A stretch of 64,000 bases of DNA from contig NC_077230.1 in NCBI RefSeq assembly GCF_027887165.1, forward strand, positions 33,617,351 through 33,681,350, written 5' to 3'. Positions 2,143 through 52,802 of this stretch are shown here, piece by piece; the stretch's first letter is position 1, and every line of letters begins with the position of its first letter. The position numbers and the translations under genes are program-made. The notes beneath the pieces were generated by a model. That model was not told the DNA's origin, did not search any database, and was given only the letters and a program-made list of their open reading frames with translations. Origin of the DNA: Monodelphis domestica. Its lineage: Eukaryota > Chordata > Mammalia > Didelphimorphia > Didelphidae.

Positions 2143-2322
2143 GTATTGGAAGATTACTGTCCTTATTCTACTGAAGCCCCTAAAACATTGCCAACAGAGT
2201 GGACAAATATTGAAGTTGGTAATTGGTTATGGAGCATTGGAATGGAGGAGTATGTTGTAAAATTTTATTGTAAAGGAATAACTGGTGAAAAACTCCTTAC
2301 ACTGGACAATCGCTCGCTAAAA
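2143..2322 (+). CDS. Exon: first part of a neurabin-like SAM domain
   Basis: This 180-bp exon starts after a pyrimidine-rich acceptor ending 'cttgacctctag' and ends at a consensus donor 'gtaagt' at 2323. It is phase 0 at both ends. The 60 residues carry the SAM helix pattern 'EWTNIEVGNWLWSIGMEEY', then 'ITGEKLLTLD' and 'SLK'. From memory, the neurabin SAM reads 'EWSVQQVSHWLMSL', 'ITGEQLLQLD' and then 'KLK', so the match is close and runs over most of the exon. SAM domains mediate oligomerisation or protein docking. The second half of the domain lies in the exon at 9581. The preceding exon is not in view or not recognised. Family placement is inference from motif matching and no search was run. 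Confidence 0.85.
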
Positions 2323-2360
2323 GTAAGTTCAAGATTGACTTTTTTTTTACAATCCATTAG

Positions 2361-2365
<5 letters not shown>

Positions 2366-2397
<32 letters not shown>
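2366..2397. repeat. (AT)n microsatellite
   Basis: About 16 AT dinucleotides lie some 40 bp downstream of the SAM exon donor. Confidence 0.97.
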
Positions 2398-2398
<1 letters not shown>

Positions 2399-2589
2399 CA
2401 CTAATTTTATTGAGAGAGTATATAAAACATAATACAAAAATGGGAAATCCTATGGATGATCTATTTGCCAATCTTATGGTTTTAAGGAAATCATGTTAAC
2501 TTCCTTTTGAATGTAGTATCAAGGGAGATTTCTTTTTGATTGTGATTTGTTAAATTCCCCCCTCCCCTTTTTAGTATTCCTAACATGTG

Positions 2590-2765
2590 GTCATTTCTTT
2601 TTATTTATATTTATTTATTTATTTATTTTTAAAAACCTACCATTCCATCTTGGAATCAATCCCCATGTATTAATTCCAAGGAAGAAGAGGAGTAGGATCT
2701 GGGCAAGGAGTGGGTAGTGAGTGACTTGCCGAGGGTCACACTGCTAGCAAGAGTATCAAGAGTAT
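2590..2765 (-). mobile_element. SINE (marsupial tRNA-type/Mar), reverse orientation, with ATTT-rich tail
   Basis: Read on the minus strand this is the 3' half of the SINE seen clean at 45454-45654: the '...gtgacttgcc..gggtcacac' block and the 'ccatcttggaatcaat' end. The tail is an ATTT-rich run at about 2598-2632. It is diverged and 5'-truncated. Confidence 0.75.
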
Positions 2766-2768
2766 GTG

Positions 2769-3978
2769 AGGGGGCATCTGGGTAGCTCAGTGGTTTGAAA
2801 GCCAGGCCTGTAGATGGGAGATCCTGGGTTCAAATTTGACATCAGACATTTCCCAGCTGTGTGTGACAAGGAAATCACTTTAAAAACTGATATATATTAA
2901 TTTAAGGTAGCCAAGGAATTCAGCTATGTAATTCCTAAATGAAAAATCAAGTCATCAGTCAACCTTTTATGGAGTTTAATTACAAACAGGAGGAAGAAAG
3001 GAATTAGAGATAGAGAGAGAGAGGGAGAGAAAAAGGGGAGAGAAGGGAATAGGGCTTAAATACCTCTTCTGTTTAGGCTGGTTAGGCAAAAGGCCCAAGC
3101 CCTTAGATAGCTGAGGCAAAGAAAAGAGATCAGTCCCTATCACTCACGTGACCAAAATGGAGAAACAGTCTCAGGAGCCTCCACCTCCAGCTTCCTTCAG
3201 AGCAAGCTTCTCAGAGCACAACCTCTCAGAGCAAAACCTCTCCAACCAACCCCCCCTAGTCCTCAGACCCCGCTATCTTTAAGGAAACCATCCAAGTTCC
3301 CTCCCCTCAGTTCTCACATCTACCAATCACTGTCCATGTCTTCCCTGTGCCAATGGTGGCTCTAGCTTAACCCAGGACCACCCAGAGGTCTGTGGCTTTG
3401 CACATGTCTGTCTGTTGAATATTCTCAAATAATTAAATCTTGATCCTTTGCTGCAGCCCTTCCTAAATCCTGTTACCCTGAATAGGGTGGAGATTGGAAT
3501 AATTAAATTTTGATATATGCTGCAGCCCTTCCTAAATCCTGTTAGGACTGAGTAGGGTGGAGATTGTAATTTCTAAGACCTGGTTTTGTCATTCCAAGTA
3601 TCTCTATTGTATCAATTCTAAAATCAATCATGACTCAAAGAACTTCCTGTTCTATGCTTAAGCATAGGTCAAAGCCCTTTCCCTTGTTCAGCAAAAGGTT
3701 TCTGTCCTAAAGTAATCTTAAGAAGGGAGGAGGAGGAACCTCCCATGCCAATGGGGTTCACATTCCAATAGACTATCAGTAAGAAATTTTCCAAGTATGA
3801 AATTTCCCAATGGTGAAATTTCCAACATTTATAAGTCTAAGAAATTTTAAGGTTTACATGTGTGACTATGGGTAAGTCACTTAATGCCCATTGCCTAGCC
3901 TTTACTGCTCTTCTGCCTTATAACCAATACATAGTATTGATTCTAAAGTGGAAGATGAGGGTTTTTTAAAAAAAGAGT
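2769..3978 (+). mobile_element. SINE (same family), plus orientation, split by an LTR
   Basis: The SINE head ('gggtagctcagtggtttgaa' then 'ccaggcctgtagatgggag') runs 2769-2861. The element resumes at 3859 with 'tgtgactatgggtaagtcac' and ends in an A-rich tail near 3975. The break falls in 'cagctgtg', where a solo LTR inserted with a 4-bp duplication. The SINE is therefore older than that LTR. Its A-rich tail was then used as the landing site of the L1 that follows. Confidence 0.9.
2862..3858 (-). mobile_element. Solo LTR of an endogenous retrovirus (fossil)
   Basis: This is a 997-bp LTR in reverse orientation. Read on the minus strand it starts TGTAAACC and ends GTCACA. It is flanked by the 4-bp target duplication 'tgtg' (2858-2861 and 3859-3862) inside a SINE. 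It matches almost end to end the plus-strand LTR at 53868-57061, which is about 992 bp once its inserted L1 is removed. Both copies contain an internal tandem duplication around the repeated 'gcagcccttcctaaatcctg' block (about 3450-3560 here). A CT/GA-rich tract sits near the promoter side. No internal retroviral genes remain. The 4-bp duplication fits class I (gamma-type) elements. Confidence 0.9.
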
Positions 3979-6900
3979 GGTTGGTATTCCGGGTAAACAT
4001 GGTGGTAGTCTAGACGCACGACTTCCTCTTCTCAGTACCCACTCATAATAGACTACCTCAAAAGACCAAAAATCCAAATTCGTAAGAATGAAGAGACTCT
4101 ACAGTAGGGCCCAGCATTAAAGCTATGTGGAATTTGGGTATTTCCACAGTATAAGGGGGTGAAAAAGCTCCCTTCAAAATGTGAGCTGATCTAACCTCCC
4201 CCCACTCCACCTACGGAACCAGAGTCAGAGCCAGCTTGCTCCTGAATCAGCGAATGAGTAAGAAGCACCTCTAGGTCCTTGGGAACTAACTAAGACCAGA
4301 AAAGACCTATCCCTGAGAGCAGCTACATGTGAAACCCCAGCAGCCTGAAAAGCACAGATCATGGGTGCTCCTGGGAAGATATCACAGAGAAGGGCAGCAA
4401 ACAGCAGAAGCTGCGGAGATTCAGGAGCTTGCCTCGGGCAAAATCATTGCTCCTTAGCTCCATACACAGAGTTCCTTCCCATCTCACTCAGATTTCTGAC
4501 TAAAATGGGAAGGAAAAACCTCTACAGTGATGGTAAATTGTGACCAGGAGCAACAACCTCCCTCCAAGGAAAACAAAAAGAAGTTATTGACCCTGGAAAA
4601 TTATTAGAGGAAAAACTCAAGCTACAAAGGAAATACAAGTGGCAGCTTCCACACTAAAGGACCACAAAACCTAGAACATGCTAGGCAAGAGAATTGGGTC
4701 TTCAACCAAGGATCACCTATCCATCAAAATTGACTATATACTTGCAGGGGAAAGTATGGGCATTCAACAAAATAGAAGATTTCCCAGTATTTGTAAAGAA
4801 AAAAACAGAACTATAAGTGGAAAGTTTGATATCCAAACACAAGATCAAGAGAAACATGAAATGGTAAATAAGAGAGGGAAAAGTGGAAAAAAATTTTTAT
4901 TCAAACTTTCTTTTTTAAGGGCTTAAATTAGATCAAATTATATGTATTAATATATGGGGGAAATGTTATTTGTAACTCAAAAATTATATTCAATATCATG
5001 GTAATTAGAAGAATCAGTCACAGGAAGAGACTGGGGCATTAAGGGGCTATGAGATGATATGCAAAAAAGGGGGGGAATCAAAGATGGCACCAAGAGATAC
5101 TTCAAGAAATAAAATAAATAGTATAATCTTTATCACACAAAGATACAAATGGGCAGGGGAGGGGAAGAATACTCTTATTAGAAGGAGAGAAAGAGAATGC
5201 TAATAGGTAATACTCTGAACCTTACTCTCAGTGAAATCAATTCTGAGAGGGAAGAAAATCTAGACCACCGGGGTCTTGAATTCTATCTTATCTGACAGGG
5301 AAAGTGAGAAGGGAAAACTAAGGTGGGTAGGTTGGAGAAAAGTACAAAAAGGTAGGTAAAGAGAGGGGGGAGGGAACGTAACAGACCCTAAAAAAAAGAA
5401 GGGAACAAAAAGGGAGGGGCCAGAAAGGGAAGCATATTAAGGGAGGGGAATAGGGGAATTGATTAAAAGTAAACCACCAGTTTAAAAGGATGTAGCAAAA
5501 GAAGAAAGGACAGAACTAGGAGAGGATATCAAAATGCTGGAGAATACAAAAGTGACAATCCTAACATTGAATGTGAATGGGATGAAATTACCCATAAAAT
5601 GAAAGCAAATAGGAGAGTGGATTAGAATCCAAAATCCTACCATATGTTGTCTACAAGAAACACACCTGAGGTGAGTAGATACTCACAAGGTTAGAATCAA
5701 AGATTGGAGCAAAACCTGTTGGGCCTCAAGTGATAGAAAGAAGGCAGGAGTTGCAATCATGATATCTGACAAAGCCAAAGTAAAAATAGATCTGATTAAA
5801 AGGGATAAGGAAGGTAAATATATCCTGATAAAAGGGAGTATAGACAATGAGGAAATATCACTAATCAACAAGTATGTACCAAATGGTATAGCATCCAAAT
5901 TTCCAAAGGAGAAACTAATGGAATTGAAGGAGGTAATAGATAGTAAAACTATACTAGTGGGAGACCTGAATCTACCACTATCAAATTTAGATAAACCAAA
6001 TCAAAAAATAAATAAGAAAGAGATAAAAGATGTGGATGAAATCTTAGAAAAATTAGGGTTAATATGTCTATGGAAAAAAATAAATAGGTACAAAAAGGAA
6101 TACATCTTTTCAGAAGCACATGGTACATTCACAAAGATTGACCATATACTAGATTATAAAAACATGGCAAACAAAAGCAGAAAAGCAGAAATAATAAATG
6201 CAACCTTTTCAGATCATAATGCAATAAAAATAATGATCAGTAAAGGTATGTGGAGAGCCAAATCAAAAATTATTTGGAAATTACATAATAGGTTCTCCAA
6301 AATTGGCTAGAAAACAAATCATCAAAACAATAATTTCATTGAAGAAAATGACAATGATGAGGTATCCTTTCAAAATCTATGGGATGCAGCCAAAGCAGGA
6401 TTCAGGGGGAAATTTATATCTTTGAGTTCATATATTAACAATTTAAGGAGGATAGAGGTCAATGAATTGGACATTCAAATCAAAAAACTTGAAAGTGAAC
6501 AAATTAAAAATCCCTAGAAGAAAACTAAATTAGAGATCCTAAAAATTAAGGGAGAAATAAATAAAAGTGAAAGTGAAAGAACTATTGTACTAATGTAAAA
6601 CTAGAAGCTGGTATTTTGAAAAAAAAACAAACAAAATAGACAAACTAATGGTCAATCTAATAAAAAAAAGGAAAGAAGAAAAACAAGGTAATAGTGGAGA
6701 TGAAAAGAGAGACCACACCTCCAGTGAAGATGAAATGAAGGCAATCATTCAAAACTCTATTGCCCAATTATATGGCAAAAAATATGCTAATCTAGGTGAT
6801 ATAGATGAATGTTTACAAAAATATAAATTGCCTAGATTAACATATGAAGAAATAGAATTCTTAAATAATCCCACCATATCAGAAAAAGAAATTGAACAAG

Positions 6901-8402
6901 CCATCAAGAATCTCCTTAAGAAAAACATCCCCAGGGCCTGATGAATTAACAAGGGAATTCTATCAAACATCAAAGAAAAGCTCAAAGTTCATTTGGAGAA
7001 GAACAAAAGATCAAAGATATCCAGGGAAATAATGGAAAAAAAAACGCAAAGGAAGGTGGCCTTTGTAGTACCAGATCTAAAACTATACTATAAAGCAGTA
7101 GTCATCAAAACAATTTGGTAATGGCTAAGAGGCAGAAAGGAGGATCAGTGGAATAGACTTGGAATAAGTGACCTCAGCAAGACAGTCTATGACAAGCTGA
7201 AACATCATAGCTTTGGGGACAAAATGTAAAATAAATAATTTTGATTACATCAAATTAAAAAAGTTTTGTACAAACAAAACCAATGCAACCAAAATTAGAA
7301 GGGAAGTAACAATTTGGGAAACAATCTTCATAACAAAATCTCTGACAAAGGTCTAATTACTCAAATTGACAAAGAACTACATCAATTGTCCAAAAAAAAT
7401 CAAGCCATTCTATAATTAATAAATGAGCAAGGGACATGAATAGGCAATTTTCAGTCAAAGGAATCAAAACTATTAATAAGCACATGAAACAGTGTTCTAA
7501 ATCTCTAATAATCAGAGAAATGCAAATCAAAACAACTCACCTCATACCTAGAAGATTGGCTAACATGACAGCAAAAGAAAGTAATGAATGATGGGGAGAA
7601 GGGGTGTGGAAAAGTTGGGATATTTGCATTGCTGGTAGACTTGTGAATTGATCCAACCATTCTGGAGGGCCATTTGGAACTATGCCCAAAAGGGGCTAAA
7701 AGACTGTCTGCCCATTGATCCAGCCATAACACTGCTGGGTTTGTACCTCAAAGAGATAATAAGGAAAAAGACATGTACACGAATATTCGTAGCTGCACTC
7801 TTTTTGGTGGCAAAAAATTGGAAAATTCCCCTTCAGTTGGGGAATGGCTGAACAAATTATGGTATATGTTGGTGATGGAATTACTATTCTGCTCAAAGGA
7901 ATAATAAAATAGAGGAATTCCATGGGAACTGGAACAGCCTCCAAGAAGTAATGCAGAGTGAAAGGAGCAGAACCAGGAGAACATTGTACACAGAGACTGA
8001 TACACTGTGGTACAATCGAATGTAATGGATTTTTCCATTAGTGGCAATTCAGTGATCCTGAAGAACCCAGAGGGATCTATGAGAAAGAACACTATTCACA
8101 TTCAGAAGAAAAACTGTGGGAGTAGAAACACTGAAGAAAAACAACTGCTTGATTACATGGGTCTAGGGGGATATGTTTGGGGATGTAGACCATAAAGGAA
8201 CATCCTAGTGCAAACATCAACAGCATGGAAACAGGTTATGATCAAGGACACATGTAATACCCAGTGGAATTGCGCATCAGCAATGGGAAGGGTGGGAAGG
8301 GGGAGGGGAGGGAGGAATAGTATATGATTTTTGTAACCAAGGATTAATGTTTGAAATTGACCAAATTAAAAAATTAATAAAATGAAATGAAATGAAAAAA
8401 AA
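3979..8402 (+). mobile_element. L1 LINE, old, internally deleted, with target-site duplications
   Basis: The insertion is bracketed by an A-rich duplication ending 'aaaaaaagagt' (3967-3978 and about 8395-8406). It begins with 5' UTR-like sequence at about 3979-4550. ORF1 is reduced to its C-terminal part (about 4620-4890). The G/A-rich inter-ORF region covers about 4930-5530, and a decayed ORF2 and 3' UTR follow. The total of 4.4 kb is well short of a full L1, and most of the reverse transcriptase core is missing. Confidence 0.85.
5534..8014 (+). pseudogene. L1 ORF2 remnant: endonuclease, RT mostly deleted, C-terminal part
   Basis: Starts at ATG 5534 by comparison with the ORF2 start of the better-kept L1 at 14993. 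The endonuclease part is recognisable: 'TLNVNGM' near the start, 'GDLNLPLSNLD' around 5960 and 'SDHNAIKIM' around 6210. The longest clean stretch is 5759-6310 (about 183 codons). The linker runs to about 6940. Sequence then jumps near 6950-7000 from the 'KNIPRA' region straight to the 'NKRSKI' region, so the FADD-bearing RT core is absent. The C-terminal region continues to about 8014 with several stops and frameshifts. No product is expected. Confidence 0.85.
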
Positions 8403-8404
8403 GA

Positions 8405-8706
8405 GTATACGAGGCCACATTTGAATTAATGACTTTTTAAAAAATTTAATTTATTTAGTCAATTTTTAGAACATTATTCCTTGGTTACAAGAATTATATT
8501 CTTCCCCTCCCTGCCCTCTCCCCACCCTTCCTGAATCTGTTGCTCAATTTCATTGGGTATTACATGTATCCTTGATCAGAACCAATTTCTATGTTGTTGG
8601 TGTTTGCATTATGATGATCATTTAGAGTCTACCTCCCCAGCCATATCTGAGTTAAGGACTTCTTGTTTCTAGGCCTAGCTCTCAATTTGCTAAGCCACCC
8701 GTCATT
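8405..8706 (-). mobile_element. Mar/MIR-type SINE remnant interrupted by an L1 tail
   Basis: The pieces at 8407-8433 ('gaggccacatttgaatt') and 8651-8706 ('gacttcttgtttctaggcc...ctaagccaccc') read as consecutive parts of a reverse-oriented Mar-type SINE. The interval between them is a separate L1 tail. The 8405 end adjoins the target duplication of the L1 at 3979-8402. Confidence 0.55.
8434..8650 (-). mobile_element. L1 LINE, 3' UTR-only insertion, reverse
   Basis: On the minus strand this is the L1 3' UTR: 'caattccttggttacaag'-like start, C-rich 'cccctccctgccctctccc', then 'gggtattacatgtatcc'. It matches the tails at 21935-22227 and 26618-27313. It is severely 5'-truncated, about 215 bp. Confidence 0.75.
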
Positions 8707-9580: not shown

Positions 9581-9682
9581 GAAATCGAAGTCAACAGAAA
9601 GAAAGACCGCCGGAAAATACTTAAGGCTATTAAGAAAGTTAGAGATTTTTGGGAAAAAAATCATATTTTCGTCTTACTATAG
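9581..9682 (+). CDS. Exon: second part of the SAM domain, possible 3' terminal exon
   Basis: Follows the acceptor 'tttctttccaaag' and continues phase 0 from the exon ending at 2322. It adds 'EIEVNRKKDRRKILKAIKKV', which has the usual SAM ending (x-x-V-x-x-x-x-D-R-x-x-I-L-x-A-I) and completes the domain. The frame stays open for 13 more residues and stops at TAG 9680-9682. Two readings fit. It may be the terminal coding exon, as expected if the SAM is C-terminal as in neurabin. Or it may splice at a weak donor 'gttaga' (9638), leaving phase 0. A long minisatellite starts about 60 bp after the stop. The domain call is firm; the 3' boundary is not. Confidence 0.7.
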   Translation, partial: EIEVNRKKDRRKILKAIKKVRDFWEKNHIFVLL

Positions 9683-9740
9683 AAATTGATGGAAAGAAGA
9701 CACAGAACCTGAAAGATATGGCAAAAATGGAAAATGCAAT

Positions 9741-11275
9741 TACTTTTGTTCTTTTTACTTTTCATCATTTTACTTCTATGTTACTTTTGTTATATGAACT
9801 TTTAAGGGATTTTACTTCCATGTTACTTTTGTTATATTTACTTTTCATCATTTTACTTGTATGTTACTTTTGCTATATGAACTTTTAAGGGATTTTACTT
9901 CCATGTTACTTTTGTTATAGGAACTTTTATTCATTTTATTGTTACTTTTGTTATTATTAACTTTTAATCATTTCACTTCCATGTTACTTTTGTTATATGA
10001 ACTTTTAATGGATTTTACATCCATGTTACTTTTGTTATATGAACTTTTAAGGGATTTACTTCCATGTTATTTTTGTTATTATTAACTTTTAATCATTTCA
10101 CTTCTATGGTACTTTTGTTATATGAACTTTTAATGGATTTTACTTCCATGTTACATTTGTTATATGAACTTTTAATCATTTTATTACTGTTACTTTTGTT
10201 ATTAACTTTTAATCATTTCACTTCCATGTTACTTTAGGTATATGAACTTTTAAGGGATTTTACTTCCATGTTTCTTTTGTTATATGAACTTTTAAGGGAT
10301 TTACTTCCATGTTACTCTTGTTATATGAACTTTTAAGGGATTTTATATCCATGTTACTTTTGTTATATGAACTTTTAATCATTTTATTAGTGTTACTTTT
10401 GTTATTATTAACTTTTAATCATTTCACTTCTATGTTACTTTTGTTATATTTAATTTTAAGGGATTTTACTTCCTTGTTACTTTTGTTATATGAACTTTTA
10501 AGGGATTTTACTTCCATAATACTTTTGTTATATGAACCTTTAATCATTTTATTACTGTTATTTTGTTATTATTAACTTTTAATCATTTCACTTTCATGTT
10601 ACATTTGTTATATGAACCTTTAAGGGATTTTACTTCCATGTTACTTTTGTTATATTAACTTTTAAGGGATTTTACTTCCATGTTAATTTTGTTATATCAA
10701 CTTTTAATCATTTTATTACTATTACTTTTGTTATTATTAACTTTTAGTCATTTCTTTCCATGTTACTTTTGTTATATGAACTTTTAAGGGATTTACTTCC
10801 ATGTTACTCTTGTTATATGAACTTTTAAGGGATTTTATATCCATGTTACTTTTGTTATATGAACTTTTAATCATTTTATTAGTGTTACTTTTGCTATTAT
10901 TTACTTTTAATCATTTCACTTTCATGTTACTTTTGTTATATGAACATTTAGGGATTTTACTTCCATGTTACTTTTGTTATATGCATGTTACTTTTGTTAT
11001 TATTAACTTTTAATCATTTCACTTCCAGGTTACTTTTGTTATATGAACTTTTAAGGGATTTACTTCTATGTTACTTTTGTTATATGAACTTTTAATGGAT
11101 TTTACTTCCATGTAACTTTTGTTATATAAACTTTTAACGGATTTTACTTCCATGTTACTTTTGTTATATGAACTTTTAAATATTTTATTACTGTTACTTT
11201 TGTTATTATTAACTTTTAATCATTTCACTTCTATGTTTCTTTTGTTTCATTATTAACTTTTAATTATTTCATTTT
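9741..11275. repeat. Minisatellite, about 1.5 kb, 39-42-bp units in a higher-order pattern
   Basis: Tandem units all begin 'gttacttttgttat'. The main types are a 42-bp unit ending 'ttaagggattttacttccat', a 42-bp unit with 'tattaacttttaatcatttc', and a 39-bp unit with 'ttaatcattttattact'. The types recur in a partly regular order, so units were amplified in blocks. Short open frames inside it with repeated 'MLLLLYELL' peptides are by-products of the repeat. It lies just 3' of the second SAM exon, in a 3' UTR or intron. Confidence 0.95.
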
Positions 11276-14060: not shown

Positions 14061-14064
14061 ATGT

Positions 14065-25640: not shown

Positions 25641-25718
25641 ATACTTGAAGAAGAGAAAATTATTCTTGTGCAAGGAGCTTGATATCTTTTAAACTTCTCT
25701 GAAAAAAATGATGCAAAG

Positions 25719-25762
25719 AAGAGTCCAACAATTAGATTTATTTTCTTGTCAAATAGACAAAG
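25719..25762 (+). CDS. Short exon just upstream of the PDZ domain (neurabin-like linker)
   Basis: A consensus donor 'gtaagc' at 25763 follows a frame encoding 'RRVQQLDLFSCQIDK' plus one base (phase 1). That is exactly what the next exon needs, giving 'DK-GENELGLC'. Recalled neurabin sequence before and into its PDZ is 'KRVEKLELFPVELEK' then 'DEDGLGI', so residues and spacing agree. The same frame has a TAA at 25690-25692, so the exon must start after it. The best acceptor by eye is the AG at 25717-25718, giving a microexon of about 44 bp. Upstream of the stop the frame reads 'KKRKLFLCKELDIF', weakly like the neurabin PP1-docking region, so an older, longer exon may have decayed. The end is firm; the start is uncertain. 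Confidence 0.6.
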
Positions 25763-30299: not shown

Positions 30300-31262
30300 T
30301 GTTATAATTAAAATGGTTGGATGCTATAAACTGTAAGAAGTTAAAATAGTGGAAGATATAAATTGTAGTAGATATGAGTGGATGAGTAAATTGTGACCTC
30401 AGGAAATATGTTTTCACTACATTGTTATGTTTTTAAATCAAATATAAGGTGGTCACCAGGGAAATATTCCCAATTTTTCAAATATACCCAAGTTAGCTGG
30501 GTTTTATAGATATTTTAATTAATACAAATGAGGAATTAAAGAAAAGGAGAGAAAGAGAGAAAAAGGGGAATAATGAGAAAAAGAATAGGCCAGCCCAGGG
30601 CAGCCCTGGCCAACCCAGGCCTAAGGCCTTAAGAGAAAGGTCAGTCAGTCCTTAATCACTCACCACAAGATCTGTCCAAGCAAGGATTCTAGTGACACCA
30701 GGCTAGCATCATCTCAGCTGCCTCCACCAGCTTAATCCTCAATCTGAAAATGACCATCTGAATGAATCTGAGCTCCTATTTAAAGGGTATTTTCTCCTAT
30801 GTCACCTCTCCTAAGTCTGTATATCTACCAATCACAGTAGACATTTTTCAAAGGACAGACCATTCTTAGTTCACACCTAAGAAGGCTTTAAATTTTTGAT
30901 TAAGTTCACACCAGAAAGCCTCTAAGTAAGTTTCTCACCTCTTTGCTCCTTGTAAGTTCACACCCTTTGTATTATATCCAAAAATACGCATAGCTTAAGA
31001 ATTTCTGTCCTACTATAAGTATGGGTTTATGTTTCTTTCATTGTTCAGCAAGGAGTTTCTCCCCCTAAAGCAGGCTTAAGTATGGGTGGAGTAGAGGTCT
31101 TCACATTCCTGATCTAACTAGAGTTCTCACATTCCTAATCTAAGTTCCTTCATTGTTTAAATGGGGAATGGTCTTAAACCCAGCTTTATGAAGTAGGGTC
31201 TGGGAATTTTTTAAGGTTTACAATCCTAACCTTATGAAGTAGGGTCTGAGAATTTCTAAGGT
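30300..31262 (-). repeat. Retroviral LTR (fossil)
   Basis: A nearly full-length LTR of about 960 bp. Its start, read on the minus strand, is a tandem pair of related segments, both containing 'cagaccctacttcataa'. The first opens with AACCTTAG and the second with TGTAAACCTTAA. The same pair occurs in the piece at 33776-33849, so the pair was already part of the LTR at insertion. The TGTAAACCTTAA opening resembles the start of the solo LTRs at 2862 and 53868, suggesting related families. A GA-rich tract lies near 30540-30590. Confidence 0.8.
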
Positions 31263-31263
31263 T

Positions 31264-31953
31264 CGTTGGAGTAGTTAACAATATTTGGAATGGTCCTTCC
31301 CATGAAGGCTGAGTTGCTCCAGTATGCTTACAATTTTTAATATACACTTTGTCTCTTGGGTTCAGGTCATGAAGAGAAAAATCTAGTGGTCCAGCTTGTA
31401 CTGCAGCTTCAGATTCATGAAGTTCACATAGTTTGTGCTGTAACTCCTGTATATAGGAAGCAATAGTAGTATCTCCCCCTAATAGTGAGGTATATGCAGG
31501 GGAAGAAGGTTCAGCCTGTATACGCGGATGTCCAAAAAGCATCTCAAATGGTGAGATGTGTAGGTCTCCTCTAGGCCTGCTTCTGAGATAAAATAGGGCC
31601 AGGGGGATAATTTCAGGCCATTTTAAATGTGTCTCAGTACATAGTTTTCCAATCATAGTTTTAAGTTCTTTGTTCATCCTCTCAACTTGTTTTGAGCTCT
31701 GGGGATGATATGGAACATGGAATTTGGGAGTTATCCCCAAGCAAGAATATATTTGATTTAAGACAGGATCAGTAAAATGGCTTCCTCTATCTGAATCAAT
31801 ATGTGCTGGTAGTCCAAAGTGAGGAATAATTTCTTTTAAAAGTATCTTAGCAACAAAATACCCTGTGGCTCTGGTCGCAGGAAATGTTTCCGGCCATCTG
31901 GTTAGTTGATCTACAATTACTAGATGAAATTTATAATGTCCAGCCTTTGGCAT
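31264..31953 (-). pseudogene. Retroviral integrase region (fossil)
   Basis: The minus strand shows the integrase core with a D-D-E arrangement around 'IVDQLTRWPE', 'DSDRGSHF' and 'PQSSKQVERMN', then 'PLALFYLRSRP' and 'SPFEMLFG', and a C-terminal 'WEGPFQILLTTPT'. These motifs are typical of gamma-type integrases. Fossil, not functional. Confidence 0.9.
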
Positions 31954-32383
31954 TGTTATGAAATCTATCTATAGATATTCAAAAGGTGTGTAAGTCAGAG
32001 GACGTCCACCAAAGGCTTTTACATTATATGCATGTTGGTTATATGCCTGTTAGGTAAAGCAGGCTGAACATACTTTAGAGGCTATAGTAGTTATACCAGG
32101 GGCTATACATACTCTCTTGACAGAGTCCATGATGCCCTGGGTGCTAAAGGAACCATTTTTTATGAATAGATTGGCAAATTTGGTGATAGAAACTTCTAGG
32201 GAGCAGGGGTTTTCCTTCAGATGACACCCATACTCCATTAATATGTTATGCTTTAAATTTCTGTTTCCACTTTTCCACTTCCTTTTCATTATACAAAAGT
32301 GATAAATTTAAATCATCAGTGGTTGTTAATGTTAAAATTAATTCAGGTCCTTCTATGGCTGTTAGCTTTGTAGTGGCATCTGC

Positions 32384-32842
32384 TCAATCATTTCCTCTAG
32401 AGACAGGGTAAGTGACACCTGTATGGGCAGAAAAATGAACTATAGCTAGGGCTTCAGGAAGCTGTAGAGCAGAAAGAACATCATTAATAATTTCTGCATT
32501 AGCTTTGGATTTTCCAGCTGAGGTTAAAAATCCTCTCTGGAGCCATAACATTCTGATTGAATGACAAATGCCAAAAGCATATCGAGAATCCATATAAATT
32601 GTTGTCTTTTTATCCTTGGCAATTATACAAGCATGCTTCAGAGCTATGAATTCTGCTCCTTGAGTGCTAATGTTAGAAGGTAGTGAAGCTGACCATTCAG
32701 TGGCAAATTCTGAGACTACGGCAGCTCCAGTGTAGCGTATGCCATCCCTCATAAAAGAGGAACCATTGGTAAATGAAATCAGATCTGCATTGTCTAAGGG
32801 AGTGTCCAATAGATTATCTCGAGGCTTTTCTGCCATGGACAC
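32384..32842 (-). pseudogene. Retroviral RNase H region (fossil)
   Basis: The minus strand encodes 'FTNGSSFMRDGIRYTGAAVV' (RNase H first strand), 'QGAEFIALKHAC' and 'IYMDSRYAFGICH', the usual acidic-residue pattern of retroviral RNase H. It lies between the RT and integrase regions in the expected order. Fossil. Confidence 0.9.
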
Positions 32843-33269
32843 TAATGTTTCATAATTGTGTAATGGTTCTCCTGAAGTTTGTAAATCTGGAAGGTAGGTG
32901 GCAGGGTTAAGAGTAGAACAATATTTTAAGGTAATGTTTTTGCTATTTAATAAGTTATTTCATACCTTGTAATTCTCTGATCCGAGAAAGTCTGTGTTCT
33001 ATGTATTATCAACAATGCTTCTACCTCATGTAGGCACATAATTGTTAATGGACATCCCAATACTAGATCAACAGTTTTTGTCACTAGTAAGGCTGTAGCA
33101 GCTACTCCTCTAAGACATGGTGGTGTTCCTGCTGCTACTGGGTCCAGTTGAGCAGAATAATAAGCAATTGGGTGCTGAGAAGGTCCTAAAGTCTGAGTTA
33201 AAACGCCAGAAGCTACTCCTCTTCACTCATGCACATACAAAGTAAATGGCTTGTTGTAATCTGGGATGC

Positions 33270-33767
33270 CTAGAGCAGGGGCAAACATGATAGCTTTTTT
33301 AGATCTGATAGAGGTGACAAGAGTTCAGGTTCTAATTTGAGGGGTTCAGGGACCAAATCTTTTGTTAATGCTATAAGGGGTTTAGTAATTTTCCCATAGC
33401 AAGGAATCCATTGTCTGCAAAATCCTGTTGCTCCTAAAATTGCTCTCAACTGTTTCTTAGTAGTAGGAGCCCTTAAATTTTGAATATTCTCAATTTGTTT
33501 TGGAGAAATATAATGAGCACCCACAGTCAGGATGAATCCCAAATATTCTACTTTAGGGAGACACCACTGAACTTTATCCTTAGAGATTTTATGTCCTCTT
33601 TTGTGCAATTCCAAAAGAAGGTGTTTACTATCTTCTTGACATGTTTCTGTGTCTGTTGAAGCCAAGAGTAGATTATCTACATATTTGATTAATTTACTAT
33701 TTTTAAATGTTATATTGTCTGTGTCTTGGCTCAAAATTTGCTCAAATAAACTCGGACAATATAACAT
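33270..33767 (-). pseudogene. Retroviral reverse transcriptase region, C-terminal part (fossil)
   Basis: The minus strand shows the late RT motifs 'YVDNLLLAS' (YxDD-type box), 'LLLELHKRGHKIS', 'VEYLGFIL' and 'LRAILGATGFCRQWIP', the usual fingers-to-connection order in gamma-type pol. Only the later part of RT is present. Fossil. Confidence 0.9.
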
Positions 33768-37615: not shown

Positions 37616-37625
37616 GTATTTGTAG

Positions 37626-37746
37626 GTGAAAATGAATTAGGGCTTTGTACTCGTATCTTCTTTGATCCAGCAGATGAGGATGAAAAGGATCCAGGTGTTT
37701 TTATTACTGAAATTGCTGAAGGGGGTGCAGCCCACAAACTTGGATG
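37626..37746 (+). CDS. Exon: PDZ domain, first part
   Basis: This 121-bp exon runs from acceptor 'gtatttgtag' to donor 'gtgagt' (37747). It starts with two bases completing a Gly codon and ends with two bases of the next codon. It encodes 'GENELGLCTRIFF', the PDZ carboxylate-binding loop region (GLGF-like), an acidic insert 'DPADEDEKDP', then 'GVFITEIAEGGAAHKLG'. Recalled neurabin PDZ has 'GIFVKTVTEGGAAQRDGR' at this place. PDZ domains bind C-terminal peptides; in neurabin/spinophilin the PDZ works beside the PP1-docking segment. Upstream phase matches the exon ending at 25762. Strong exon call; family by motif. Confidence 0.92.
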
Positions 37747-39767: not shown

Positions 39768-39875
39768 TATCCATTTATTTGACCAGATTATTAAAATAGG
39801 TGAAACCAATCTAATTGGATTAGATGAAGAAGAAATCTTCTCTACTTTTAAAAAAATGGAAAATTGCGTTTTCCG
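39768..39875 (+). CDS. Exon: PDZ domain, second part
   Basis: This 108-bp exon runs from acceptor 'tctctttttcag' to donor 'gtgagt' (39876). The first base completes a Cys codon (TG|T) and the last two bases start an Arg codon. It encodes 'CIHLFDQIIKIGETNLIGLD' and 'EEEIFSTFKKMENCVF'. This is the PDZ core with the usual G-R-I/L-x-x-x-D-x-I-x-x-I-x-G pattern; the usual Arg before I is Cys here. Recalled neurabin equivalent: 'RIQVNDQIVEVDGISLVGV'. Both junction phases agree with the neighbouring exons. Confidence 0.93.
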
Positions 39876-40327: not shown

Positions 40328-40433
40328 GATTGAAATTGGACGAGAGCCACCTGAAGTCAAGACAGAACTCATCATACTCCTTGAATTGTCAGAGGAAAGG
40401 AAGAAATTTTTTACAGATTCAGTCATAGTTCAG
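40328..40433 (+). CDS. Exon: end of PDZ domain and start of linker
   Basis: This 106-bp exon runs from acceptor 'tgaacctag' to donor 'cag|gtatga' (40434). It starts with the last base of an Arg codon and ends in phase 0. It encodes 'IEIGREPPEVKTELIILLEL' then 'SEERKKFFTDSVIVQ'. The recalled neurabin PDZ ends 'RFVIGREKPGQVSEVAQLIS' with a following acidic/basic helix, so 'IGRE-P' and the helix start match. This is the strongest single hint that the PDZ belongs to the neurabin/spinophilin branch. Confidence 0.92.
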
Positions 40434-43890: not shown

Positions 43891-43973
43891 GAAAAAGTTG
43901 GAGATATCAAAATTGTGAAAGGAAAAGCAAGAAATTCTAAAACTCCGAAAATATCATGGCTCTGGATCACCAG
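43891..43973 (+). CDS. Exon: basic linker after the PDZ
   Basis: This 83-bp exon runs from acceptor 'tctccccttaaag' to donor 'cag|gtatat' (43974). It begins in phase 0 and ends with two bases of a codon. It encodes 'EKVGDIKIVKGKARNSKTPK' and then 'ISWLWIT', a lysine-rich stretch with no domain I recognise. The phases link the exon at 40433 to that at 51446. Support is from splice signals and phase only; there is no motif, so confidence is lower than for the PDZ exons. Confidence 0.75.
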
Positions 43974-45212: not shown

Positions 45213-45453
45213 GAGAATATATTTTCAAGAATTAAAAGGAAAACTCTATAAAGATAAATGGATGAGTAAAAAACAATAGGCAAGGAGAGAATATTAAAAT
45301 GTAAGTCATTTTGGAGAATGTTTATCTGACTTTGGTAATATATAAATGAATGTTCAAAATAAACAGGATAAAAAGACTAGAATCTCTAAGTATGATGCTT
45401 AATCTTTAGGTTACTAAGAGTGTTGAACCAAATTTTTTCAAATGGCCAATATA

Positions 45454-45654: not shown

Positions 45655-45689
45655 AATGGCCAATATATTTTATACTATTCACATGTATT

Positions 45690-45935
45690 TATGGTGTCCA
45701 GCTCTGCTTTTATTTTTGATTTTTAGGATTTTTTTGTACACAGATACTGGAGTGGTTTGCCATTTCCTTCAACTCATTTGACAAGAATAAAGCTGAGGTA
45801 AATAGGGCTGACTGACTTGCCTAGGGTCACACAGCTAGTTTTTGATTTTACTGCATTTGAACTTACAAAGATGAGGCCTCCCTGACTCTGGGCTTGGTAC
45901 TCGATATCCACTGGGCCACCTAACTACCCCTAACT
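45690..45935 (-). mobile_element. Mar1-type SINE, reverse
   Basis: In reverse: the head 'ggggtagttaggtggcccag', then 'ctaggcaagtcagtcagccc', 'gaaggaaatggcaaaccact' and 'ccagtatctgtg'. This is the CORE-type marsupial SINE in good order. Confidence 0.8.
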
Positions 45936-47319
45936 GCCATTAGTATTTGCAATGTAAGGAGGAACAATAAAATATACCTCAGGCATTTACCTATGGTATA
46001 GTGATAGGAATTTCCAAAATAGGATAACAATGACAAGGGATGTTCCAATCAAGGGGATTGGGATGATGCTGTTTGTGCCCTCTCCCTTTCCACTAAGGAG
46101 TCTCTCTGGTTTTGATCTAAGCACATAATGACCAGCTTTTTAGCCTTGGAGAGACCTGAAAGGTCAAGCATCTATCTCACAGCCTTTGACTCTTTATTCC
46201 TCTACCCTGTGTCTCAAGAGAAAACTAAACAGGAAAATTTGGCCAAATAAGGAACTAGAAAGGTACTCAGTCTACTCTGTGAGACAGCTACTTATTTCCT
46301 CTTTACAAAAGATGGGCATAATAAATACAAGATCTGATTTCCATTCAGGATCTCTGGACCTCTGAAATTCATAATGTTGATTTTATGCAGAACACAACTT
46401 TAAGACTGATGTTTGATCATGTCTGCAGCGACAGGCAGTAAGAGGATTAGGTTCAAGTTTGCCTAATTGATCCCTAAAACCACAACCACATGGAAGAAAC
46501 TGCCAAACCCTTAGGATGGTGAGGGCAGCCCATCCTCCTACTGCTCAAAAGAGAATTATTTGCCACATGCCCTAGAAAACCAAAGGAAGAGAACAAGCCA
46601 TAAGGAGCCTCTCCTTTTTAACAGATACAACACCCCACCACCACCTTCCTCTCTGACAGGTTGGGGAAAGGACCAAGGGACCATGCGCTGGTTCTCTGTG
46701 GGACTGAGCCACATATGTGGTCCAGAGGAAGTAGACAGGGCAGCTCTAAGAATGTTCCATCCCCATTACCATAACCATTGACATGAAAAGAGAGTCTGGC
46801 AGGTAGACATAAATACATAAAAGCCTTTTAAGTGAAATTCATTGATCACATTTGTTTTAAATGCAAGCTTAGGTCTTTATTGAACTTACAATTTAAAGTA
46901 CTGTCATGCCTTACATGATAATGCTCAATATTGCTAGGAGAACCACATGGCATATATTTGGAATTGTGTGTTTTTATTTTATCTTTAGGGTTCATTAAAT
47001 CATATTTGGGTAAGTACAGATATGGGAAGGATTCATGATTTCATTGATATATAGGAAATGCTCATAGGTAATGAAACTTCCCCTACCAATGCTGGCTGAC
47101 ACCTCTGCAACTTAATTGTTTAAAAGTATTGATAAACAAACTTGAACTCAGATTTTCTTGACTTGCTCTTTATATGCTATGTAAAGCTGACTCGCTAGGT
47201 ATGATTTCATACATATACACACATACACACACTAGGTTGTCTCTATGCATGAAATATATAATTTATTCAGGTATTTAGGAAATATTCTCCATAATGAATT
47301 ATTCTATAGGCAGGACTAA
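45936..47319. other. Intron, nothing recognised
   Basis: Unassigned. Short open frames near 46560-46818 on both strands have no family, splice or codon support. Confidence 0.4.
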
Positions 47320-47695
47320 GATTGTAATGACCGAAAGGTTTGGTCTTTCAGTATATATAGAGAAGAGTGGAGACCTCTCTGTTTCAGCTTTTGGAGCTGA
47401 GGCCAGGCCTCACAGGCTGGCAGAGGGTTTCTCCCACTCCCATCCTCTGTGCTACTTTTGTTGATTTCAGAATCTTAGCAGTTGATAGAAAGCAAACAAG
47501 AACAGTTCTAACTTTCAGAAACTGGTTGGGCCTGTGTCTTCGGGCTGAATTGAGAAGAGGCACTCGGAATCAGGACTGGGAAGCCAACACTCCTCCCACC
47601 TCCAACAGCAGGAAGGAAGTAACAACCAGGCAGGAAGGAAGTGCAAGTCACAAGACCCAACTGCCACTCCCAGTTGGCCCTCCCCCCACCAACTA
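47320..47695 (+). promoter_or_regulatory. Promoter-like/LTR-like block, unassigned
   Basis: A GC-richer island in AT-rich surroundings with a TATA-like 'cagtatatatagagaaga' at about 47351-47368. An open frame follows at 47367-47720 with no recognised family. It abuts the truncated end of a reverse L1. It may be part of an LTR fossil. Confidence 0.25.
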
Positions 47696-50270
47696 TCAGT
47701 CTTGTTTCCTTTCCAAATAGCCTTCTTACCCTTCCCCCTAACTTTTCGATTTTAGTCAGTCTCTCTCTTTTCCCCTCCCTAATGTTACTCCCCTTCCAAT
47801 GTCCTCCCCTCTTATTTATTCCTCTCTTACTATAGTGCCTTTTAAATGACCCCCCAATTTCTCCCTCTCTTGTGTAGCTCCCCTCCCCACATGCCCATTT
47901 ATTATCCTTCTACTTCTCCATAAGAAACAATACAATTCTCTGCCCCAATGGATCTGATTGTTCTCTCTCTGAGTCAATTTCAGTGTGTGTAAGATTTAAG
48001 TATTACATGTTGCCAAACTCTTCCATTCTTCCATTGAATTGATCTTCTCCCCCTCACCCATGAGCTTCTTTATGAAAAATATATTTACCCCATTTTATCT
48101 CTTTTCCAATTTCTCTTAGTATTAACCTATGTTTACACCTAGTTTTTTAAATACATTTTGATATATTATCCTATACAGTTTGTCACTGTACCCTCTAAGT
48201 ACCATTTTTCTAGCTAACCTGATGAAAATAACAATTTTTAAGAGTTATCAATATGTTTCCTTATAGAAATACAAATCATTTTTACCTCATTGGGTCCCTT
48301 AAAAAAGTTTTATTTTCTTTTTTTTTTCCTTTCTTACCTTTTGGTGATTCCTTTGAGTTCTGTTTTGGGGTATGAAATTTTCTGTATAAGTCAGGTCTTT
48401 TTTTTAGGAATGCTTGGAAGTCTTTTTTAAATTAAATTACAAAACTTTCCAGTGCATGACTATAATCAATTTTGCTGGGTAGTTGATTCTTGGTTGTAGA
48501 CCCAGTTTCCTCATATTCTGTAATATCATATTTTTTGCCTTGCAGTCCATCAGAGTGGATGCAGCCAGTTCCTGTGTTATGCTAACTGTGCATCCATGAT
48601 ATCTGAATGGTTTCTTTGTAGCATCTTTTCCTTAATCTGGAAGTTCTTGAACTTGGCTATAACATTCCTTGGTGTTGTCAATTAGCTATTAAATGCAGCA
48701 GGTGGTCTGTGGATTCTTTCAATCTCTACCCTCTTGTTCAAGAATGCCTGAGCAGTTTTCTTGAATATCCAGACTTTTTTCTTTGGTCATGATTTTCTGG
48801 TGGTCCAATGTTTCTTAAATTGTCTCTTCTGGATCTATTTTCTAGGTCTTTTTTTTCCAACATGTTGTTTCATATTTTCCTCAAATTTTTCATTCTTTTG
48901 ACTTTGTTTTATAGACTCTTATTGCCTTGTGAACTCATTTGCTTCTAGTTGTTGGATTTTTGGTTATCCTTTTCCTTTTGGTCTGTTTTTCTTTGTAGTT
49001 CATCTTTCATTTTCCTTGCTTCATTTTCAAGCCGGTAAATTCTGCCTTTTAAAACACTATTTTTTTGTTTTAGTTCATGTGCCTCTGTTTCCAAATGACC
49101 TATTTTGCTTTTTAAGATCTTTTCCCAATTGTCTTCAGCCTCTCTTAATTGTTTTTTGAATTGTGCTTTGAGTTCTTCCAAAGCCTATGTCCAGTTCTCT
49201 GGAGTTCCTAAGTTTTTGCTTGGTGTTTCTTGGTCCTCCTCCTTTCCGTTTGTTCTTTGTTCAGTACCCATATAGAAACTGTTGATTGTAATTTCTTTTA
49301 TCTTTTTCTGTTGTTTACTTATATTCCTTCTCCTCTCCCCCCTCCCCATTGTTGGCTGTAATCATACACTTTTGTTTATTTGTTGGATCTGTGGAGTTTG
49401 GGCTATTCTGTCTTGAAGAGGCTTCTTCTCTGCTCTGCTGATTAACTAGATTAGACTGATGGAGTATTAACTGAGCCCTGAGACCAGATCTTCTTCAGTT
49501 TCCAACAGAAGCTGAAGGCGAAGATGAAGGTAGTTACCCTCATCCTCCTTTCTACTCCTTTCTGCCAGCAGCCTCCCTGTCAGCTGCTCAGTCAGAGTTC
49601 TGAGCTTCCCATGATGGTACCAAGGTACTCTATCACAGTTATAGCCTTCACCCTGGGATCCCAGTCAGCTGGATTCTTACTGTGGGTAATGTAAGTGGGA
49701 GGAAGAGTGTTGGAGATTGAGATTCCCTGCCCTTTGAAGGCTTCTTATTTGCACAACTGGTAGATGGGATAAAGCCTGGCCAAGCTGATTTGCAAAGCTG
49801 AATGTGGATGTTCCTTGAGGCCAAAACTTCCAGAGGCAGAGGACCAAGATATGGAGAGTGGTGGCTGAAGGCGGTGACCCAGCTGCCCTCCTCTCTGCCC
49901 CTCTCCTTCAGCTATGTCCCTTCCAGTTGTCAGAGTCCTGGGTCTCAAGTAACTGTGGTGGCAAGCACTTTCTCCAGGCTAGAGCTCTCACCCCAAGATC
50001 TCAGCAATCACCCAAATCTCAGCGCCGTAGGTAGGGGAGGAATCCGGGGATCTTCCTTATTTCTTTTCCTTAAACTAGAGAATTCAGGATTCTCTGTTGT
50101 GTACCTTTTACATTGAATTGAGCAGGAGGGTCCCCTGGCTCTGTCTTGTTTGATTTGTTTTTCTATCGCCCTTGAAGCACTTTGTTTTTTATTATGTGGA
50201 AGAGTTTACACAGAGGACTCAAATTTTGCTACTTCTAAGTGGCCATCTTGACTCTGCCTCTGAACACTAA
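47696..50270 (-). mobile_element. L1 LINE, reverse: 5' UTR, ORF1 and inter-ORF region, no ORF2
   Basis: The 5' end is at about 50270 ('agaggcagagtcaagatggc' on the minus strand). The 5' UTR runs to about 49330. ORF1 (about 49300-48200) includes the coiled-coil 'MEELKAQFKKQLREAEDNWE' and 'NSVLKGRIYRLENEARKM' (49181-48945). The C-rich inter-ORF segment (about 48060-47700) ends abruptly with no ORF2 or 3' tail. Losing the 3' end is the reverse of the usual L1 truncation. Confidence 0.8.
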
Positions 50271-50279
50271 ATCTTGAAA

Positions 50280-51190
50280 CACTATGCCTAACAACCCCTT
50301 TCCCTTATATCCTCACTTCTTGCCTTTCACCCCTACCCCAAAAATAAAGAGGAAAACATTAAAAGGGTGAAAAATATCAAACATATTTAGCCCAACAATA
50401 CAATTCCTATATTTGTCCTATTCAAAAATGTATACCTTATTCTGCTTTATCAGTCTATCACTTCCCCTTTTATGTGGTGGGTATCATTGTTTAATCTTTA
50501 CCCTCTAGAATTGTGGCTGATTGTTAAATATTGTGGTTAAATAGAGTCTATTAAATAAATGTCCATTAAATAGAGTTCTTAAATCTTTCAAATTTCTTTT
50601 TCTTCATGATGTTATTATGGTAAAACCCTCATGATATTGTGGAATTTCTTCATGTGATCATGACAAATGCTTTTTCTGGTTCTGTTCACTTTGTGTCAGT
50701 TCACAGAAATCTGCCCAGGTTTCTCTAAGACCATTCTGGTAATAATTTCTTATTGTGCATAATTTGTTCAGCCATTTCCCAGTGATGAACATCCTTAGTC
50801 TCCAATTTCTTACCTTTGAAAAAAATTTATAAGTCTACTATAATTATAAAAGTCTACTACTATCTATGGGTCCTTTTTATTTTTATTGTTGAACTTCTTT
50901 GGGATTATAGGTCTAGTAATGCAATTTCTAAATCAAAGAGTTAGTTCAATGACAGCTTAATGTATCCTAGGACCAAAGTATTTTACTGAATGCCTAGAAA
51001 AACCCACATTTCTACCAATATTAATACTATTACTTTCCAATACCCCTCCAATAATTGTCATTTTTATTTGTCAATTGTCATTCTTTGTCAATCAGAATAA
51101 TATGAAGTAGAAGCTCAGAGTTGCTTAAATTTATACTTCTCTACTTATTTAGTGATTTTGGACTATTTAAAATTGACCACTCCCTTGAAA
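50280..51190 (-). mobile_element. Old L1 3'-end fragment, reverse
   Basis: Landmarks in reverse order: 'ggttctgttcactttgtgtc', 'gttcagccatttcccagtga' and 'tgggattataggtctagtaa'. These are the ORF2 C-terminal region and 3' UTR of an old subfamily. Confidence 0.75.
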
Positions 51191-51229
51191 ACTGCCATTT
51201 TCATATATTGGACTTTTTGATGGTCATTT

Positions 51230-51410
51230 AATTGAAAGAAACCTCATGGTTCAAGTCCAAGGCTTTCATTTGATCAGTGTAGTAAATTGAAGGTCAGAAA
51301 GGCTATAAGTGACTTGCCTAAATTAATACAAATAGTTAGTGGAAACTACAATTAGATTCTAGAACTAGAAATAGAGGTCATGTCTCCTTAATTCCAAGAT
51401 GATTTCATTG
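51230..51410 (-). mobile_element. MIR-like remnant, reverse
   Basis: 'ataagtgacttgcctaaatt' with 'agttagtggaaactacaatt' resembles the reversed MIR middle. Weak. Confidence 0.4.
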
Positions 51411-51445
51411 TCCATTGTATCAAACTATCCCTTTTTCTTCCGTAG

Positions 51446-51542
51446 AGAACTGGAATTAAAAAATGAAGAGATGGAATTGAAAAGAATAATAGAAGAAGAA
51501 GGTCAGAAATATAAAAAAGACCTCAAGGAAATTGATGAAAGG
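51446..51542 (+). CDS. Exon: coiled-coil segment
   Basis: This 97-bp exon runs from acceptor 'tttttcttccgtag' to donor 'agg|gtacag' (51543). The first base completes an Arg codon left by the exon at 43973, and it ends in phase 0. It encodes 'ELELKNEEMELKRIIEEEGQ' then 'KYKKDLKEIDER', a highly charged amphipathic helix with leucine/isoleucine at heptad-like spacing. Neurabin and spinophilin also have a coiled coil after the PDZ, used for dimerisation, so the position fits. The residues do not align closely with the neurabin coiled coil as I recall it. Confidence 0.8.
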
Positions 51543-51571
51543 GTACAGTTCATTTATATGTATACACACAT

Positions 51572-51573
51572 AC

Positions 51574-51606
<33 letters not shown>
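51572..51606. repeat. (TA)n microsatellite
   Basis: About 17 TA units, 30 bp downstream of the coiled-coil exon donor. A (TG)n run also lies at about 51893-51912. Confidence 0.95.
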
Positions 51607-51612
<6 letters not shown>

Positions 51613-52570
51613 ATCTATGATTAAAAATCCAGTGTCTGGCTCACATATTTTCCCTCTTCTTTGTGAATAAAATCTAAATCCTGTGACTTCCAAACTGAAA
51701 CCAGAGAGTTTTACAATTAATATCCAGCATACCTTGAAATAAATCTTATTATATATACATATATGCATATAAGTCTCATATACTCACAGCTTAGCAAAGG
51801 ACCAGATACATAAAAAGCATTTAATAAAGGTCATTTTTTCTTTCTATATACACATGACAAGATGTATAAATATATACATACACACATTTATATATGTGTG
51901 TGTGTGTGTGTAACTTACATCTATATATACACCTCTATCAAAGAACAGGATACATTTTTATCAAAACTCTCCTAACATCATTCTAACTGCAAATGGCCTG
52001 GTCCCTGTAATTTCCCAGTTCTTATGGCACTTTCACTAATTTTGTGTTTGAACATCTTTACTAGTCCATGCTACAAAATTATAACCTCCCTGGAGACAGA
52101 ATCTGTCTTTTCCCTTTCATATACAATACTACACACAGAGAGTGGTTTCATTTTATAATATTAAGAAGGAAGACCTACAATGAAATCCCTCCTTCTAATG
52201 TCCATCCTGGATGTCTAAACCTCACCAAGTCGGTAACATCTTAGTGCTCTGGGAAACTCTCTGCAACAAGAGAGCAATGGAAGTGACACTTTCCTTGAAA
52301 AAGTTAGTTCTTCACTGGGAGATCTTTTCACTTTGGATTCTATCCCTAACCTCATCTACTATGACTATTCCTATTCCTTTTCCCTTTCCTATTCCCATTT
52401 TGACCTCTATATCAATGTCTATCCCTATCCCTAACTTCATGTTAATCCTTAAATCTATTTTGATTATTATTCCCTGACAACCTATTCATGGAATTTGTGT
52501 ATAAGTATTTTTAATGTATAGTATTAAGGGGTTAATTGGAGAGCAGAGAGGCCTGATAAGTGGCTAGCAG
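51607..52570. other. Intron, no other feature
   Basis: Unassigned AT-rich sequence with a pyrimidine-rich 'cctatt/tccctt' low-complexity patch at about 52360-52440. Confidence 0.4.
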
Positions 52571-52802
52571 GTACAAATGAGTTATTTATGGAATAGTTAT
52601 GAATGCTGGAGAAAAAAAGGATTGAATAAATTGAAATTAATAGAATTATTATGGTTGCACAAATTTCAGACTAACAACTTGATAGAGAAACTTAAAAAAT
52701 ACGTGAACATATCTGAAGTGAATATCGGAAATCAGCCTGAGGAGACAGTAAAAGAAGATATAACAACAGGGCAATTATTGGCCGCAGAGGATATCAGTTT
52801 AG
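52571..52802 (+). CDS. Exon: helical segment after the coiled coil
   Basis: This 232-bp exon runs from 'tggctagcag' to donor 'gtaaga' (52803). It begins phase 0 and ends with one base, so a further exon must follow downstream. It encodes 77 residues: 'VQMSYLWNSYECWRKKGLNK', 'LKLIELLWLHKFQTNNLIEK', 'LKKYVNISEVNIGNQPEETV' and an acidic end 'KEDITTGQLLAAEDISL'. The length without a stop in AT-rich DNA and the phase match to 51542 support it. The acceptor lacks a strong pyrimidine tract, so splicing efficiency is uncertain. No domain recognised. Confidence 0.7.

Follow-up and report, generated by a model that had tools for sequence, protein, structure and literature searches.

The window analysed here is a 64,000-nucleotide stretch of the Monodelphis domestica genome on chromosome C4 (C4:33,617,351-33,681,350, forward strand), in which a first-pass annotation had described SAM, linker and PDZ exons, in that order, as a single neurabin-like locus. 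The exons of both sets are real and all lie on the forward strand, but each set completes a gene of its own: within the window, the last part of a gene here called type B is followed by the first seven of the eleven coding exons of a second gene, called type A. Flanking sequence was added so that 164 kb (C4:33,577,351-33,741,350) were exon-mapped, and the genome that was searched comprises 13 contigs with 3,586,138,614 bases (3.59 Gb). We put at about 95% the joint probability that the window contains two genes, that these genes are part of a tandem array, and that the array is of neurabin descent. The notable part of the locus is this amplification and not a swapped domain order.

The type B gene (C4:33,591,636-33,627,032, + strand; 11 coding exons, 420 amino acids) begins upstream of the window, and its own PDZ exons are located in the flanking sequence (C4:33,597,503-33,600,029, +). 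Its SAM domain lies within the window on two phase-compatible exons of one strand, as the first-pass annotation had proposed, and is recognised as Pfam SAM_2 (E 3.6e-13). Exon 10 of 11 (SAM exon 1; 2143..2322, +) has GT-AG introns and phase 0/0 and is found in 31 type B copies in the array, and exon 11 (SAM exon 2; 9581..9682, +), the last coding exon, ends in TAG and matches the C-terminus of RefSeq proteins (...KKVRDFWEKNHxFVLL). A tandem minisatellite with units of about 40 bases (window 9740-11275) lies directly 3' of this stop codon, and the stop codon of the next gene downstream of type A, B2, is followed likewise.

The type A gene (C4:33,643,058-33,690,326, +; 11 coding exons, 373 amino acids) begins within the window. 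Its exon 1 (25708..25762, +) had been annotated as a linker exon; the exon itself stands, but it carries the start codon (ATGATG) and the first PDZ-region residues, and the RefSeq models P0001 and P0002 begin at the same methionine. An in-frame TAA precedes the ATG, and the 15 bases that separate the two include no AG. The PDZ domain (Pfam PDZ, E 5.8e-8) is indeed spread over three phase-compatible exons: exon 2 (37626..37746, +), which encodes PDZ part 1, is 100% identical to P0001 and has GT-AG boundaries; exon 3 (39768..39875, +), which encodes part 2 and is skipped in the RefSeq isoform P0001; and exon 4 (40328..40433, +), which encodes part 3 (IGREPPE) together with the start of the helical linker. 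The linker continues through exon 5 (43891..43973, +), which was overlooked at first but is present in P0001, exon 6 (51446..51542, +), which matches P0001, P0006, and P0007, and exon 7 (52670..52802, +); P0006 and P0007 join exons 6 and 7 to a downstream SAM. Exons 8-11 (window-equivalent 70297-72976, +) are beyond the window and include the gene's own SAM exons (C4:33,688,857-33,688,994 and 33,690,246-33,690,326, +; window-equivalent 71,507-72,976), 7.5-9 kb past the window end. Both ATTAAA and AATAAA occur within 200 bases 3' of the type A stop codon.

Together with B2 (C4:33,703,914-33,729,444, +; 11 coding exons, 420 amino acids), types A and B are the three genes that were read over all 11 exons, the other copies being read at exons 2-4 and SAM exon 1. 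Each of the three is complete with an open frame, all of their 30 introns are GT-AG with phase-compatible junctions, and each has the neurabin order of PDZ, linker, and SAM, which a Pfam scan covering types A and B also returned for these two. The predicted exons are not chance reading frames, as their peptides correspond exon by exon to RefSeq opossum proteins. The proposal of one permuted, third neurabin-type gene, with SAM before PDZ and transcribed through 2.1-52.8 kb and beyond, reflects the exon order within the window, where SAM does precede PDZ on one strand. The flanks, however, give the upstream gene its own PDZ and the downstream gene its own SAM. The window SAM ends in a stop codon and an in-frame stop just before the type A ATG is not separated from it by an acceptor, which excludes a simple SAM-then-PDZ transcript, and the splice sites that the genes use would not join in frame, given phase 0 at the end of SAM exon 1 and phase 1 at the beginning of PDZ exon 2. 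One sign expected of separate genes, a polyadenylation site soon after 9682, was not seen: no AATAAA or ATTAAA was found within 1500 bases 3' of the type B stop codon, the first lying at window 12246, which speaks for the permuted gene and against two separate genes. On balance a permuted gene is extremely improbable, and this reading is rejected. The other option raised at first, in which tandem duplication had placed the middle of a second copy beside the 3' end of the first, was correct as to the tandem arrangement, but the PDZ part is the start of the second copy. Domain order read across neighbouring tandem copies can therefore mimic a permuted gene.

The neurabin-like character noted for both domains was borne out by sequence and by four common introns. 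Among the matches shown for the PDZ profile, neurabin-1 was the best single-domain match (64.8 bits), with DLG4 domains at no more than 33.0 bits each; DLG4 chains rank above neurabin-1 only by summing several PDZ domains. The top PDB sequence match to the window SAM by phmmer was the neurabin-1 SAM (E 1.9e-9). A neurabin-1 PDZ probe gave seven genomic matches, comprising three PDZ exons each at C5:327.10 and C2:202.66-202.67 Mb and a weak seventh on C7, and weak SAM matches at C5:327.08 and C2:202.62 Mb agree with these two loci. From their residues, the loci at C5:327.08-327.10 Mb and C2:202.62-202.67 Mb are read as PPP1R9A-like and PPP1R9B-like, respectively. All four introns compared agree in position and phase between the array genes and the two loci: the intron following PDZ part 1 and the one preceding the IGRE exon were read on both sides at C5 and C2, the one within the SAM on the 5' side at C5 and C2, and the one before PDZ part 1 on both sides at C5 and on the 3' side only at C2. 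Upstream of this last intron, coding in the C5 gene continues through ...AEYELEKRVEKLDLFPVELEK, and type A begins there with MMQRRVQQLDLFSCQIDK.

Two comparisons of the SAM weigh against a specifically neurabin origin, as liprin-beta-1, with three SAMs summed, ties with neurabin-1 in the SAM profile, and a Foldseek search with the type B model placed the SAMs of Shank2 and DGK-delta above that of neurabin (rank 17). Taken together, the sequence and the common intron positions and phases nevertheless indicate that a neurabin/spinophilin-type gene was the ancestor of the array family, which is a divergent and shortened derivative. That unrelated domains are adjacent by chance, considered unlikely from the outset, is ruled out by the neurabin-1 matches of both PDZ and SAM and by the common introns. 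The array genes resemble neurabin-1 and spinophilin (PPP1R9A and PPP1R9B) in having a PDZ domain, a linker, and a C-terminal SAM, but differ in that their proteins have 373-420 amino acids, that they exist in many tandem copies, and that type A starts just before the PDZ. A further SAM-bearing relative of the neurabins, SAMD14, had been named in the first-pass annotation.

The array extends over C4:33.59-38.42 Mb and includes at least 43 PDZ-exon places and at least 64 SAM-exon places. Searching the genome for the type A PDZ yielded at least 126 matches, a lower bound as 150 of 179 candidates were scored. Places of exon 2 in the array comprise 31 of type B, nine of type A, and three divergent ones, with one more at C4:183.56 Mb. 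The search with the SAM, in which all 121 of 121 candidates were scored, gave 98 matches; SAM exon 1 accounts for 31 type B, 28 A-like, and five divergent places as well as one each on C2 and C5, and the other matches are SAM exon 2. Types B and A mostly alternate along the array, with exceptions, and the SAM exon that comes after a PDZ exon is of the same type in 30 of 31 type B cases (one pair is inverted) and in eight of nine type A cases, a recurrence that also argues against the permuted gene. On the other hand, an A-type PDZ is missing ahead of 20 of the 28 A-like SAM places. One such PDZ-less A-like copy near the window is visible from exon 6 onward, which agrees with P0006 and P0007 (type A 3' parts of 207 amino acids, with 1 and 7 member sequences), as both begin in exon 6. 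The array is a tandem family of many similar copies of a partial scaffold-gene copy. A 1.7-Mb stretch without PDZ or SAM matches (C4:35.46-37.14 Mb) splits it.

The array units are roughly 92-97% similar, and the type A copies hardly differ from one another in the exons sampled. Such units misassemble easily, and collapsed or misordered contigs might in principle produce the observed order. This explanation is very improbable, as the 164 kb around the window contain no N and hold three complete genes in order, the units differ among themselves and are thus not one repeat duplicated by the assembler, and the succession of B and A stays largely regular along megabases of sequence. No description of the array or family was found in the open-licence literature, judged by titles and abstract openings, and passages of one paper retrieved for opossum gene-family expansion (PMC9937046) contain no mention of neurabin or of PPP1R9.

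Most copies sampled are open. Exons 2-4 of 31 type B copies and exons 3-4 of eight type A copies were fetched, with type A exon 2 taken from the PDZ search; the type A counts omit the ninth copy (exon 2 = L094). PDZ exons 2-4 are open with AG and GT throughout in 30 of 31 type B copies, the exception being L045, in which the exon-3 boundary has changed, and SAM exon 1 is open with AG and GT in 31 of 31. The PDZ exons are open in all eight type A copies, of which L055 has a donor changed from GT to AT, and stops occur within the matched stretch at three of the 28 A-type SAM places.

Site variation was compared by simple site counts that use no tree. For the PDZ exons, 28 type B copies of equal length were used, L045, L048, and L053 being left out because they have a broken exon or an insertion of 3 bases. 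Across exons 2-4, there were 18 amino-acid changes on 265 sites and eight silent changes on 71, and 72 of 431 sites of intron 3 were variable, so that amino-acid sites vary less than intron sites (p 1.1e-4). Pairs of copies differed on average by 0.0105 at amino-acid, 0.0276 at silent, and 0.0308 at intron-3 sites. For SAM exon 1 in the 31 type B copies, 14 of 142 amino-acid sites, six of 38 silent sites, and 69 of 155 sites of the upstream intron were variable (amino-acid versus intron sites, p 1.2e-11), and the mean difference between copies was 2.25% in the exon and 8.1% in the upstream intron. The control in this case is the upstream flank; a version with both flanks (167 of 328 sites variable) was set aside, as some copies differ downstream. 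Between types A and B, the numbers of changes per synonymous site (dS) and per non-synonymous site (dN) were 0.48 and 0.24, giving a dN/dS of 0.51 (Fisher p 1.5e-5).

These figures bear on a less favourable account, in which the array is a segmental duplication that is mostly non-functional, with many copies being transcribed noise or young pseudogenes. The many A-type SAM places without an A-type PDZ, the few with stops, the changed exon-3 boundary of one B copy, and the lost donor of one A copy are all compatible with it, and several further results weigh on the same side against constrained, functional copies. The deficit of amino-acid changes relative to silent ones within type B is not significant by count, either in exons 2-4 (p 0.22) or in SAM exon 1 (p 0.38). 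The coding sequences of the neighbouring genes B and B2 (35/1208, 2.9%) have diverged about as far as their non-coding DNA (615/23488, 2.6%), and dN/dS between the two genes is 1.46 on 30 and 5 changes. Moreover, SAM exon 1 varies little at its silent sites too when compared with the intron (p 0.0014), which means that gene conversion may act beside selection or in its place and may explain part of the coding constraint in type B. Against a mostly non-functional amplification stand the open PDZ regions and SAM exons of nearly all type B copies, the lower variation of amino-acid sites than of introns in both PDZ and SAM, and the A/B dN/dS below one. We regard mostly non-functional amplification as unlikely, though its probability is well short of negligible.

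RefSeq models correspond to both types. P0001 (uncharacterized LOC103098397 isoform X2) is 100% identical to the window exon peptides when residues from neighbouring exons are set aside; compared with the window, its A run in exon 6 (window 51510-51519) is longer by one base, and its last residues differ, with an early end. The extra A probably reflects another type A copy or allele. The type B model P0003 is one 90%-identity cluster that stands for 29 sequences. A point against the proposed gene family is that the retrieved models are partial: most of the PDZ is missing from P0003 and P0004 and all of it from P0006 and P0007, PDZ exons are skipped in P0001 and P0005, and P0002 covers just the PDZ half. 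Putative expression of the array genes is read from the existence of RefSeq models. P0005 (LOC103097891) represents a third type of 428 amino acids, in which the SAM is present and the PDZ is reduced by absent exons.

A profile search was made in one database, among proteins of about 205-653 amino acids (a range with full-length neurabins outside it), with the 7998 candidates richest in common words scored. Strong E-values were obtained only for marsupials (opossum, Antechinus, Macrotis, and Phascolarctos), which account for nine of the ten matches at E <= 0.1, and a EukProt protein with a SAM makes up the remaining one (E 0.059). Single genes annotated as 'neurabin-2-like' or uncharacterized in Antechinus (P0008), Macrotis (P0009), Phascolarctos (P0010), and opossum (P0011/P0012) share the PDZ and linker of the array genes, and the alignment of P0008 with the type A protein shows 40% identity. 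Unlike the array genes, P0008-P0012 from these four marsupials all end in ...WFR, before the SAM. The opossum single gene (C4:183,550,764-183,567,489, -) has CGG TAA at the position of the exon-8 donor, with AATAAA downstream, and no SAM exon was detected in C4:183,541,000-183,577,000 (best E 0.2), which includes 9.8 kb after the stop. The SAM thus seems to have been lost in this gene.

The part of neurabin upstream of the PDZ carries actin-binding and PP1-docking segments. Type A has lost this part: coding starts just before the PDZ after an in-frame stop, which leaves no room for the N-terminal F-actin-binding region. For type B, an AG is present at the upstream in-frame stop, so that further exons may lie upstream. 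When A, B, B2, and P0001-P0012 were scanned with a loose motif, no RVxF-type PP1-docking site was found upstream of the PDZ, and the matches (RIFF, KISW, and REIEF) are all within or after the PDZ. AlphaFold models support the SAM of P0003, with blocks of ten residues at a predicted local distance difference test score (pLDDT) of 82-94 within it, whereas the PDZ model of P0011 is poor. With regard to the coiled coil expected between PDZ and SAM, they predict helices at 65-85 and 90-110 in P0003, with low confidence, and one long helix in P0011.

We tentatively propose that the proteins might act as adaptors or decoys, which would keep the neurabin PDZ ligand site and the SAM contacts without bringing PP1 or actin, and which could compete with neurabin and spinophilin; this is the likeliest mechanism, though possible rather than probable. 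The closest precedent, in rodents, derives from Dlg5, a scaffold gene that carries PDZ domains. According to two studies, Speer/alpha-takusan is a rodent expansion from a partial Dlg5 copy, is estimated to number 215 copies on mouse chromosomes 5 and 14, and is expressed in post-meiotic germ cells, with some members in brain (PMC7743899, PMC2680341). Speer/takusan is a lineage-restricted autosomal expansion from a partial scaffold-gene copy, as the opossum array seems to be, and differs in its parent gene, Dlg5, and in its reported germ-cell and brain expression, whereas the opossum family is known from genes and RefSeq models. The expansion probably provided dosage in one tissue, for which, by this analogy, the germline would be the leading guess. 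A bolder version, in which dozens of translated, PP1-uncoupled neurabin derivatives would form a dosage-driven family that disturbs neurabin/spinophilin signalling in opossum germline or brain, as a marsupial parallel to Speer/takusan that arose independently and was amplified in an arms race, is speculative and rather doubtful. A neurabin derivative without the PP1-docking part, present in dozens of largely open opossum copies, offers a natural experiment on a scaffold uncoupled from PP1. Provided that it is expressed, the family would parallel rodent Speer/takusan with another scaffold parent, and the role of such expansions would become testable in a second mammalian lineage.

The type A gene also harbours traces of mobile elements. 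Broken retroviral pol-like open reading frames (ORFs), recognised by eye, are found on the minus strand of its first intron (window 31186-33767). Further downstream, 3' of exon 7, two direct copies of 2.2 kb (window 54038-56226 and 59652-61843) are 98.4% identical and lie in minus-strand ORFs that were recognised by eye as LINE-1-like; they are probably two young insertions.

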